Assembly: GCA_003153975.1 (NCBI GenBank)
Contig: PMBZ01000071.1
Span: 4,755-45,527 of the forward strand
From: Hyphomicrobiales bacterium
GTDB lineage: Bacteria; Pseudomonadota; Alphaproteobacteria; Rhizobiales; Rhodomicrobiaceae
Length of the DNA: 40,773 nt
Direction of reading: 5' to 3'
Shown here piece by piece: positions 25,024-28,833 of this stretch (position 1 is its first letter; each line of letters starts with the position of its first letter). The notes beneath the pieces are model-generated. The model was not told the DNA's origin and did not search any database. It saw nothing but the letters and a program-made list of their open reading frames with translations. A program made the translations under genes and the position numbers.

Positions 25024-25456
25024 GTTGGGGGGGGGTAAGAATTGCTCATCAACTGTCTTCCAGCGCGGGCCAAACCGAACGGAGAACCTTGCCCGATGCC
25101 TCGCGCCACGGCAAATCAGGCAGCTTGCCTGAGCCTGCTCCAGGAATTCGCTTGGCGGGCGGCAAACGAGTGCGAACTTCAGGCCGGCTCCAATAGCCTG
25201 TGGGTATCTGTCGCATGAGAGACAGGCCCGCCCGGCCCCGCTGCCGCACCGCTTTCCCACCTTCGCGATGAAACGCTGCAAATGCAGTTACTTGCGGTAG
25301 CGCACAGCCGCTTTCGACGTGGGCATTCCTTATCGGCTCCGGCAAAGGCAAGGATTTTGCGCTTAACCGTAATTTTTCGCTTGTAATAGCGGGCAAAGGG
25401 GGGCAATAGCCCGCCCTGTTCATATCTGGACATCTACTGGTTGGGGAGGACGCCAT

Positions 25457-25969
25457 ATGGCATTCCATGACGGCCTCTTCCAATTGGGGATGGACTTGGA
25501 TCGAGGTTCAAGCACCGCCCAAACGGAAGAAAAGCATGCCCTCGCCGTTACGCGCACCGACGGCGATTTGAAGAAGGACTGCTTTTGCGAGCGCAACGGT
25601 ATCGAGTTTGCCGGAACGCAGCTTCTTACCTGTGTGTTGTATCGCGCGCAACCCAGCGGCATCGATCACATCGAGCAAGCTTCCAGGCGGCTTTTAGAGG
25701 TGCCGGAGGCCACGCTCCTGCACCTCCCTTCGCATCGTTTCAGGCCCAAAGGCGGGGTATCTGGGGTGGCGGCGCCGCTGGAATTGCACATTTCGATCCG
25801 TAGCTGGCCAGAACGCGGCCGTGTCGCCACCGGCACTTTCATGTGCGGCCCCTCCAAGCCCCATCTGACGATCGATGCGATCTGGCAGGCGTCTGAACAG
25901 GAAGAGAAAATCGGCAGGAAAGAGCGGCGGGGGCAGCAAGCGGCCTGGCAAATGAGGCTCGCGGCGTAA
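25457..25969 (+). CDS. S-adenosylmethionine decarboxylase (SpeD)-like protein lacking pyruvoyl-forming Ser; possible pseudoenzyme
   Basis: AGTQLLTCVLYRAQPSGIDHIEQASRRLLEVPEATLLHLPSHRFRPKGGVSGVAAPLELHISIRSWPERGRVATGTFMCG aligns with bacterial SpeD (..HHFSPxGVSGV..xESHxSIHTWPE...D.FxCG) but has ELH for ESH and IRSWPE for IHTWPE. Confidence 0.75.
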   Translation: MAFHDGLFQLGMDLDRGSSTAQTEEKHALAVTRTDGDLKKDCFCERNGIEFAGTQLLTCVLYRAQPSGIDHIEQASRRLLEVPEATLLHLPSHRFRPKGGVSGVAAPLELHISIRSWPERGRVATGTFMCGPSKPHLTIDAIWQASEQEEKIGRKERRGQQAAWQMRLAA

Positions 25970-26195: not shown

Positions 26196-27422
26196 ATGGC
26201 CGAAGGAACGGTACTTATAATAGGCGCGGGGGGCGTCGGGAGCGTAACGGCGCATAAGTGCGCCATGAACGACGGTGTTTTCAAGAAGATCCACCTGGCA
26301 AGCCGCTCAATAGCAAAACCCAATGCTATTAAGAATTCCATCAAGGTGCGCACGGGCGTGGATATCGACACACATATCGTGGACGCTGACGAGGTAAGCC
26401 AGGTGGCTGGTCTCATTGAGAAGGTGGCGCCTGAAGTGGTTATCAACGTAGCACTTCCCTATCAGGACCTTGCGATCATGGAGGCGTGCCTGACGGCAAA
26501 GGTGCCCTACATCGATACGGCCAACTACGAGCACAAGGACAAGGCGCATTTCGAGTACAAGCAGCAGTGGGCGTTCCACGATAGATACCGGAAGGCGGGC
26601 ATTCTGGCCGTGCTGGGCGCCGGTTTCGATCCTGGCGTCACCAACGCCTATTGCGCCTATGCGCTGAAGCACTATTTCGACACGATCCGGTTCGTCGACA
26701 TTGTGGACGCGAATGCGGGCTCACACGAAAAGGCCTTTGCGACCAACTTCAACCCCGAACTCAACCTTCGCGAAGTGACGCAGGCGGTCCGGCACTTCGA
26801 TAACGGCAAGTGGGTGGAAACTCCTGCCATTCTCGAAAAGGACAGCATCCATTTTGCCTTCGATTACCCTTTCGCCGGTCCTAGAGAGAGTTATTTGCTC
26901 TTCCACGAAGAATTGGAATCGCTCGCCAAGCATCTTCCCGGGCTGGAGCGCATCCGCTTCTGGATGACATTCTCGGAAAACTACCTGACGCACCTGCGCG
27001 TGATACGCAATATCGGCATCGACAGCATCGAGCCCATCGATTTTCAGGGCCAGAAAATCGTGCCCATGGAATTCCTCAAAGCGCTGCTGCCCGATCCAGC
27101 TTCGCTTGCCGCCAATTACAGCGGCAAGACAGTCATCGGCTGCATCGTCACCGGCCTCAAGGACGGCCAGGAGAGCACGAAATTCATCTACAATATCTGC
27201 GACCACGCCGAGACGTTCAAGGAAGTCGGCTCTCAGGCGGTTTCATACACAGCCGGCGTGCCGCCCATGGTCGCGGCCATGATGGTCATGCAGGGCAAAT
27301 GGGCCGGCGCCGGCGTCTACAACGTCGAACAACTCGATCCGGACCCGTTCCTGCAAAGCTTGTCCGTAAACGGGTTGCCACATGAGGTGATCGATTATCA
27401 CCCCCTGCCGGCGAAGATATAG
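26196..27422 (+). CDS. Carboxynorspermidine/carboxyspermidine dehydrogenase (saccharopine dehydrogenase family)
   Basis: VLIIGAGGVGSVTAHKCAMN, VINVALPYQDLAIMEACL, GAGFDPGVTNAYCAYA, MMVMQGKWAGAGVYNVEQLDPDPF. Confidence 0.9.
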   Translation: MAEGTVLIIGAGGVGSVTAHKCAMNDGVFKKIHLASRSIAKPNAIKNSIKVRTGVDIDTHIVDADEVSQVAGLIEKVAPEVVINVALPYQDLAIMEACLTAKVPYIDTANYEHKDKAHFEYKQQWAFHDRYRKAGILAVLGAGFDPGVTNAYCAYALKHYFDTIRFVDIVDANAGSHEKAFATNFNPELNLREVTQAVRHFDNGKWVETPAILEKDSIHFAFDYPFAGPRESYLLFHEELESLAKHLPGLERIRFWMTFSENYLTHLRVIRNIGIDSIEPIDFQGQKIVPMEFLKALLPDPASLAANYSGKTVIGCIVTGLKDGQESTKFIYNICDHAETFKEVGSQAVSYTAGVPPMVAAMMVMQGKWAGAGVYNVEQLDPDPFLQSLSVNGLPHEVIDYHPLPAKI

Positions 27423-27594: not shown

Positions 27595-28833
27595 ATGAAG
27601 GTGCTCTCGAACATGGAAAAGCGGCCCAGGTCTTCAGTCGAACCGGCAAAGGTGGGCGCGGCCTCCTTCGTCATAGAGGAGGATATTCTCCGCCACAATC
27701 TGAGTGTCCTGAAGTACGTCAAGGAGCAAACCGGCTGCAAAATGTTCCAGGCGCTGAAGACCTGGTCCACCTGGCCGCTTTTCAAAATCACCAGGGAATA
27801 TCTGGACGGGACCGAGGTGAGTTCGTTGAATGAAGCCCGCCTCGGCTACGACGAGTTCAATCATGATGTGCACATGTATGCGCCGGCATACAGCGAGGCC
27901 GAGTTCCCTAAGATCCTCAACTATTGCAGCACGGTCATCTTCAACAGCTTTGCCCAGTGGGAGAAGTTCAAGCCTCGGGTGGATGCCCGCGTCAGCCGGA
28001 CGGGCAAGAAGATCGAATGCGGGTTGCGCATCAATCCGGAATATGCCGGAAAAGACGAGCATGGCGGCTTATGGACGCCCTGCGCTCCTGGATCGCGCCT
28101 CGGCATTCGCATCGATGAGTTCAAAGCCGCGCTCGCCAAAAATCCCCGCGCGCTCGATGGGATTGGCGGGTTGCACTTCCACATCTTTTTCGACAAGACC
28201 TTCGAAGACCTGAGAGATGCGCTAGGCGTCATCGAGGAGCGTTTCGGCGAGTATTTTTCGCGAATGCAATGGATCAATTTCGGTGGCGGCCAGAAAATCA
28301 CCGATGACGATTACGATGTTGAAGGGCTTATCCAGCTCGTCAACGCGTTCCAGAAAAGGCACGGCGTGACCGTTCACATGGAACCAGGCGCTGCCATCGT
28401 AAAAAATGCCGGCGTGCTGGTTGCGAACGTGCTGGATATTGTCGAGCGCGACGACGTGGGCTTCAAAATCGCGATTTTGGATATGTCGTTCAATGCGCAT
28501 ATGCCAGATTTCCTCTTGAGCCCGGAGCTGGACATGCCGGTGGCCGGCGCGGAAATCGTGCGCGATGCGGCGGAGCTGAAAAAGCACGCGCATGTCTACA
28601 GGCTGACCGGGGGCACCTGCGTTTCAGGCGATCAGCTTGGGCACTATCACGCTTTTCAGGAGCCACTGAAACCAGGCGATAAGGTGATTATGGAGGATGC
28701 CATCCAATACAATTTGGTGCAATGCACGATGTTCAACGGCGTCCAGCATCCGGCCATCCTGCTCTGGAAAAACGGCCAGCTGGAGGGTGTCCGGGAGTAT
28801 ACCTATCAAGACTACCGGGCCCGGATGGGATAA
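27595..28833 (+). CDS. nspC: Carboxynorspermidine decarboxylase (PLP-dependent, alanine racemase fold)
   Basis: FQALKTWSTWPLFKITREYLDGTEVSSLNEARLG; LHFHIFFDKTFEDL; INFGGGQKITDDDYD; MEPGAAIV; GGTCVSGDQLGHY; alternative start ATG 27613. Confidence 0.9.
   Translation: MKVLSNMEKRPRSSVEPAKVGAASFVIEEDILRHNLSVLKYVKEQTGCKMFQALKTWSTWPLFKITREYLDGTEVSSLNEARLGYDEFNHDVHMYAPAYSEAEFPKILNYCSTVIFNSFAQWEKFKPRVDARVSRTGKKIECGLRINPEYAGKDEHGGLWTPCAPGSRLGIRIDEFKAALAKNPRALDGIGGLHFHIFFDKTFEDLRDALGVIEERFGEYFSRMQWINFGGGQKITDDDYDVEGLIQLVNAFQKRHGVTVHMEPGAAIVKNAGVLVANVLDIVERDDVGFKIAILDMSFNAHMPDFLLSPELDMPVAGAEIVRDAAELKKHAHVYRLTGGTCVSGDQLGHYHAFQEPLKPGDKVIMEDAIQYNLVQCTMFNGVQHPAILLWKNGQLEGVREYTYQDYRARMG

Follow-up and report, generated by a model that had tools for sequence, protein, structure and literature searches.

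A conserved 5′ RNA element retained on an inactivated speD gene beside a carboxyspermidine pathway in Alphaproteobacteria

INTRODUCTION

The AdoMet decarboxylase SpeD depends on a serine that self-cleaves to form the pyruvoyl group, a processing histidine, and a catalytic cysteine (Ser63, His68, and Cys83 in Thermotoga maritima). Here, we describe a speD homologue in which the first two are replaced. It lies in a 40,773-nucleotide stretch of DNA, the window, from an alphaproteobacterium of the family Rhodomicrobiaceae (GenBank assembly GCA_003153975.1, contig PMBZ01000071.1, positions 4,755 to 45,527 of the forward strand). The encoded protein is homologous to the class 1b SpeD (AdoMetDC) of T. 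maritima (1tlu and 1tmi S63A) and is predicted, with low confidence, to have a SpeD fold but, unlike that enzyme, it has no pyruvoyl serine, processing histidine, or SpeE partner.

Two other groups of proteins resemble it in part. The ornithine and arginine decarboxylases (ODC/ADC) derived from SpeD retain the self-cleaving serine and form a pyruvoyl enzyme (PMC10407285). The window shares with them a SpeD homologue, the lack of SpeE, and an adjacent alternative triamine pathway (CASDH/CASDC), but it does not have their self-cleaving serine. The AdoMetDC prozyme of trypanosomatids is also a catalytically dead protein of the SpeD fold; however, it activates a live paralogue (PMC5201418), and none was found in the window genome, which is 88.8% complete.

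Structured leader RNAs of polyamine genes offer a second comparison. The Spermidine-I riboswitch, a SAM-I variant, is found in the leaders of polyamine genes including speD (PMC10853860), whereas the element described below matches no Rfam family, SAM-I included, and reaches into the coding region. The alphaproteobacterial speF RNA (RF00518) is a structured leader on a polyamine gene of the same class, but it is located on speF, is about 400 nt long, and is intergenic; speD is not mentioned in the paper describing it (PMC1273637).

RESULTS

Inactivation of the window speD gene

The speD ORF at positions 25457 to 25969 (plus strand) encodes 170 amino acids. Its match to PF02675 (46 bits; cutoff, 25) establishes homology to SpeD, its TIGR03330 score (51 bits) is under the equivalog cutoff of 75.65, and it aligns without gaps with the intact SpeD of a Rhodomicrobium congener (G001) at 62.9% identity. 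As the initial annotation had proposed, the position of the pyruvoyl-forming serine (ESH) is occupied by Leu110 (codon TTG, 25784 to 25786), the processing histidine of the IHxWPE motif (IHTWPE) is replaced by Arg115 (CGT, 25799 to 25801), and the catalytic cysteine of FxCG is still present as Cys130 (TGC, 25844 to 25846), all on the plus strand. Thus, of the features of an active SpeD, the PF02675 domain and the cysteine were found, and the serine, the histidine, and a genomic SpeE were missing. In all, 10 of the 40 body positions that are at least 95% invariant in intact homologues are altered (H55Q, D67S, H91P, V106A, L107P, S110L, H115R, Y122R, D126G, and F146S), compared to 0 of 40 in the congener. 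The S→L and H→R changes, proposed for a check of their conservation in relatives, do not occur in the congeners G001 and G002, which are intact, and other Ser-less SpeDs mostly show Ser→Gly.

The ORF was the sole PF02675 match in the window genome (G000; 88.8% complete), which leaves its suggested role as a prozyme-type activating partner unsupported. With the window protein as the lone query, a protein scan of the genome contigs found no relatives. A neofunctionalized pyruvoyl-dependent ornithine or arginine decarboxylase was also considered, since a SpeD without SpeE that clusters with CASDH and CASDC, among others, is one setting in which these decarboxylases occur (PMC10407285). They too depend on the self-cleaving serine, however, which is Leu110 here, and the processing histidine is gone. 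The displaced functional serine envisaged in the initial annotation did not appear either, as none is conserved in the Ser-less group. The ODC/ADC assignment was rejected for Ser-less SpeDs because the serine is missing, and we regard it as scarcely credible.

Replacement of speE by casdh and casdc

The polyamine pathway has been swapped in the window. Downstream of the speD ORF, where congeners have speE, are genes for a carboxy(nor)spermidine dehydrogenase (CASDH; 26196 to 27422, plus strand; PF03435 and PF16653 over cutoff; NF043000 at 401 bits, below the cutoff of 800) and a carboxy(nor)spermidine decarboxylase (CASDC/NspC; 27595 to 28833, plus strand; PF00278; TIGR01047 at 408.8 bits, just below the cutoff of 409.05). 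The gap between the ORF and casdh is 226 nt, and no terminator-like site was found in it on the plus strand. No SpeE over cutoff was found in the 88.8% complete window genome, as judged from one model and its cutoff (best TIGR00417 match, 158 bits; cutoff, 249.55). In the congeners G001 and G002, by comparison, SpeD is intact and SpeE is over cutoff, and speE follows speD in the same orientation at a distance of ∼1 kb; in G001, a MaoC-like gene, by our own reading of the sequence, lies between the two. The upstream neighbor of speD also differs, being fliI in the window and a TsaC-like gene in G001, which means that the speD locus has moved too. In two other Rhodomicrobium genomes (G003 and G004), NspC is present and neither SpeD nor SpeE was matched. 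The window CASDH and CASDC are 55% and 37% identical, respectively, to those of other Rhodomicrobium; given this low identity, the pair may have been imported from elsewhere. A gene for a GmrSD-type restriction endonuclease (PF03235 and PF07510; 28923 to 30698, minus strand) adjoins casdc.

A similar association was apparent among the genomes compared, several of which are incomplete bins. All six Ser-less genomes tested (G000, G008, G059, G155, G179, and G289) were without SpeE over cutoff and all six had NspC, whereas SpeE was present in 11 of the 12 genomes tested that have an intact SpeD. Likewise, speE was downstream at 37 of 45 intact speD loci compared to 0 of 10 Ser-less loci. One genome, G128, retains the serine with SpeE below cutoff and NspC present, a possible intermediate state. 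At another locus (L119:5516-6061, in a bin labeled Hyphomonadaceae), a Ser-less speD adjoins convergent casdc and casdh genes.

Decay of the SpeD body

The body of the window gene has evolved under relaxed constraint. First, in the aligned body, 47 amino acid changes are unique to the window compared to 4 unique to G001, and the tip lengths in the tree are 0.84 for the window and 0.022 for its sister. Second, omega was ∼0.57 on the window branch compared to ∼0.02 on the G001 branch, a three-taxon counting estimate from the window-G001, window-G005, and G001-G005 distances rather than a maximum-likelihood test. Third, the AF2 model of the window protein had a mean pLDDT of 54 despite 28 homologues. 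On the other hand, invariant sites have changed less often in the window than variable ones (Fisher p = 0.0026), indicating that some constraint lasted for part of the window branch. The ORF is without stop or indel; survival of the frame was discarded as proof of constraint because it is too weak, the probability of no stop under neutrality being 0.08 to 0.32 by simulation.

Our reading of the window SpeD body is that its constraint has relaxed and that it is decaying, a retained function being the less likely alternative; most likely, the ORF is in decay after the pathway swap. Of the two alternatives in the initial annotation, decay after replacement by the carboxyspermidine pathway fits the window best (SpeE lost, NspC present, and a long and relaxed branch), and a prozyme-like partner would need an active paralogue, which was not found. 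Intact relatives, with this copy evolving neutrally, had also been anticipated; the congeners are indeed intact, and the invariant sites of the window copy point to some constraint for part of its branch.

The retained function would be that of a pseudoenzyme, a polyamine/AdoMet sensor or a CASDH/CASDC partner, with the 5′ element described below kept to regulate it. Two new prolines at invariant positions (H91P and L107P), the long tip branch, and a Ser→Leu change where almost all others have Ser→Gly make this unlikely for the window, even with an open frame free of indels and fewer changes at invariant sites. The low-confidence fold also contrasts with the good fold of a Hyphomicrobium homologue, a loose comparison since the alignments differ in make-up. 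A further argument for a pseudoenzyme comes from elsewhere, namely, from the Ser-less SpeDs of the Hyphomicrobium group, which carry the same element and are under purifying selection.

A conserved RNA element at the 5′ end of speD

The most informative feature of the locus, which the initial annotation missed, is a conserved RNA element at positions 25428 to 25530 (plus strand), consisting of the leader and the first ∼25 codons of speD. The leader and first 29 codons of the window gene are nearly identical to those of the congener, whereas the remainder has diverged: 133 of 423 body positions differ compared to 2 of 104 aligned positions in the element, one of the two being a single-base gap just before the start codon. 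The probability of only 2 differences is 0.003 if 10 are expected and 9e-5 if 14 are expected under neutrality, these expectations being our own estimate from the nonsynonymous rate. This means that selection acted on the element during decay of the protein, suggesting that the transcript is still of importance. A plain recent pseudogene, in which neither the ORF nor the element is under selection and decay has yet to reach the element, would agree with the redundant pathway and relaxed body, but such a small number of element differences sits badly with ∼0.25 to 0.3 nonsynonymous changes per site on the window branch, and we consider it quite improbable.

Conservation of the element is base by base. 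Codons 7 to 9 and 11 are CTC, TTC, CAA, and GGG, each in 29 of 29 intact loci gathered by protein search without a DNA filter, and mean codon entropy in 27 loci that had passed a loose DNA pattern was 0.03 bits in the element compared to 1.27 bits in the core. The covariance model matched the window copy (G000:C122:30182-30284) with 107.7 bits (E = 8e-25), this copy being one of the 30 sequences that built the model. The model found the element in 38 of the 385 genomes of the class, 39 of the 199 of the order, and 10 of the 299 of the phylum, one per genome, and all 10 phylum-level matches belonged to the same class, Alphaproteobacteria. Every match inspected was at the 5′ end of a speD ORF, either intact or Ser-less. 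An exact 24-mer of the element occurs in at least 118 GTDB stretches, nearly all of them Alphaproteobacteria by label among the matches listed. One bin labeled Chloroflexi (L127) has the 24-mer and groups with Hyphomicrobium in the tree; its label looks like contamination.

In six loci and in the window stretch, the element had no Rfam match (SAM, SAH, speF, and other RNAs) at E values of up to 1, and no speD leader RNA of Alphaproteobacteria was found in the open-licence literature. The element is apparently undescribed and class-wide. Short ORFs in L061, L080, L115, L125, L138, L147, and L151 were rejected as stand-alone elements, as those inspected stop at contig or chunk ends (L080 and L125 were judged from their lengths). 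Further upstream, Hyphomicrobiaceae have another covarying helix ∼30 to 90 nt before the start codon (L030:1386-1477 and L022:1227-1318), possibly an aptamer arm, and Rhodomicrobiaceae have hairpins of different sequence at a similar place.

Two mutually exclusive helices

RNAfold predicted two alternative folds of the element, in different members. In helix A, the leader CAUCURCUGGUUGGGGAGG pairs with CCUCUUCCAAUUGGGGAUG of codons 6 to 12, which buries the Shine-Dalgarno sequence and places the start codon in the loop. In the window, the 5′ arm, CATCTACTGGTTGGGGAGG, which holds the Shine-Dalgarno sequence, is at 25431 to 25449 and the 3′ arm, CCTCTTCCAATTGGGGATG, within the coding region, is at 25474 to 25492. 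Helix B is a hairpin within the coding region, UCUUCC..UUGGG..UGG.CUUG-loop-CAAG..CCG CCCAA..GGAAGA, and leaves the Shine-Dalgarno sequence free; its 5′ arm (TCTTCC, TTGGG, TGG, and CTTG) is at 25476 to 25498 and its 3′ arm (CAAG, CCG, CCCAA, and GGAAGA) is at 25509 to 25530, all arms being on the plus strand. Since the strand at 25476 to 25492 belongs both to the 3′ arm of helix A and to the 5′ arm of helix B, the two helices are mutually exclusive. Exclusive helices over a Shine-Dalgarno sequence, as in an expression platform, are thus seen here in computed folds and pair counts.

Both helices are supported by covariation. The window sequence allows 18 of 18 pairs for helix A and 18 of 18 for helix B, and in the 30 trimmed sequences, 98.9% (A) and 97.4% (B) of cells are paired, compared to 40 to 66% in slid controls. 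In 44 sequences, double-sided change was seen at 8 pairs of helix A, with 20 compensatory cells against a shuffled mean of 4.6 (a count reached in 0/500 shuffles); helix B, with antisense matches excluded, has 11 such pairs in 40 sequences, with 26 cells against a shuffled mean of 4.8 (0/500). Slid controls were below both helices in compensatory counts. These counts lean toward the structures, since divergent covariance-model alignments fitted to each structure were included; the MAFFT alignment A2 of less divergent members gave one double-sided-change pair per helix. An example of a hairpin kept despite peptide change is L283 (MGSDSLNAAQ), where it is rebuilt with CUCAG/CUGA.

That example also bears on whether the N terminus is conserved as a peptide, through nascent-chain arrest or as a polyamine-sensing leader peptide, rather than as RNA. 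The amino acids LFQLGMDL..SSTAQ are conserved too, and the N terminus is predicted to be disordered, but synonymous sites are frozen, conservation extends to the untranslated 5′ arm, and the helices persist despite peptide change, so that a peptide function is very unlikely. The nature of the RNA signal is a separate matter. G-U pairs abound in helix A, which covers the Shine-Dalgarno sequence, TTGGGGA-GG occurs twice (in the leader and in the coding region), and the element has no known ligand, all of which would suit a thermosensor or a site targeted in trans by a small RNA or protein. This reading concerns the RNA part only and is compatible with decay of the ORF; we hold it to be somewhat unlikely, as association with one metabolic gene only, two competing helices, and the extra upstream helix in Hyphomicrobiaceae are features more usual in metabolite switches.

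Ser-less SpeDs of Hyphomicrobium and relatives

Among 119 distinct proteins of the SpeD type that were collected, the serine is missing in 21, with Gly in 19, Val in 1, and Leu in the window. Besides the window, these loci (L022 to L025, L029, L060, L062, L084, L086, L105, L111 to L114, L119, L126, L132, L161, L165, and L170) mostly belong to Hyphomicrobium or other members of the Hyphomicrobiaceae; some are in bins labeled Devosia, Bradyrhizobiaceae, or Hyphomonadaceae (labels as given). In many of them, the histidine or cysteine is also missing. Four switches between having and lacking the serine are required on the tree, and well-supported branches force three of these.

These proteins look like maintained pseudoenzymes. 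Body dN/dS was 0.14, 0.15, and 0.16 for the close pairs L024/L062, L161/L170, and L029/L084, respectively, and 0.23, 0.26, 0.31, and 0.34 for L023/L132, L114/L132, L084/L161, and L084/L170. The median for intact SpeD pairs of comparable dS is 0.35, so that purifying selection here is of an ordinary and not an unusually strong kind. The predicted fold of the Hyphomicrobium protein L084 has a core pLDDT of 80 to 94 and its best match is the T. maritima AdoMetDC (Foldseek E = 3e-8; TMt = 0.76), which the window model matches more weakly. The pseudoenzyme idea of the initial annotation therefore suits this separate group, in which selection is purifying and SpeE is absent from the five genomes tested, and the window itself better fits decay. 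In Hyphomicrobium L022 and L084, the next gene after the Ser-less one lies on the other strand, so the element there presumably regulates the pseudoenzyme itself.

Other Hyphomicrobium SpeDs (L118, L131, and L146) keep the serine and have the catalytic Cys changed to Ser, or seemingly so, a possible intermediate state. In G289, a second, short SpeD homologue (L227:1300-1797; ETSHVAVH, Ser kept), which may be a SpeD-derived decarboxylase, accompanies the Ser-less SpeD of the genome.

DISCUSSION

The explanation that we favor, and consider probable on balance, is that a pathway swap left a dead speD to decay while its RNA element was kept, likely as a regulated leader for casdh-casdc. The ancestor would have made spermidine via SpeD and SpeE from a speD mRNA that starts with the element. 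Translation of speD was probably switched by helix A, which would bury the Shine-Dalgarno sequence, and helix B, which would free it, in response to a polyamine or AdoMet as the putative signal. In the window lineage, casdh-casdc would then have taken over spermidine synthesis at the place where congeners have speE, speE would have been lost, and the SpeD body would have lost its serine and histidine and then decayed. The transcript probably has a continuing need of the element, which would explain its retention; the leading possibility is that the dead speD ORF now serves as a regulated leader for casdh-casdc. Counting against the leader role, a 226-nt gap precedes casdh, which could have its own promoter. 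That role concerns one locus: no other genome with the element, Ser-less speD, and casdh in one direction was found, nor was a leftover element found at casdh-casdc of G003 and G004.

More tentatively, as a possibility that falls well short of probable, the element may represent a novel class of alphaproteobacterial riboswitch, with one half in the speD coding region. It would sense a polyamine or an AdoMet-derived metabolite and would either outlive the dead enzyme as a leader for the replacement pathway, as in the window, or govern a retained pseudoenzyme, as in Hyphomicrobium and relatives.

A structured RNA embedded in the start of speD, a central polyamine gene, and present in many alphaproteobacterial families but not in Rfam, could account for the control of speD in the class and is a candidate riboswitch for a polyamine or AdoMet. 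Because it survives on dead SpeDs, selection on the switch can be told apart from that on the enzyme. The selected Ser-less SpeDs of Hyphomicrobium and relatives, in turn, are a natural set for asking what noncatalytic role a bacterial SpeD may have.
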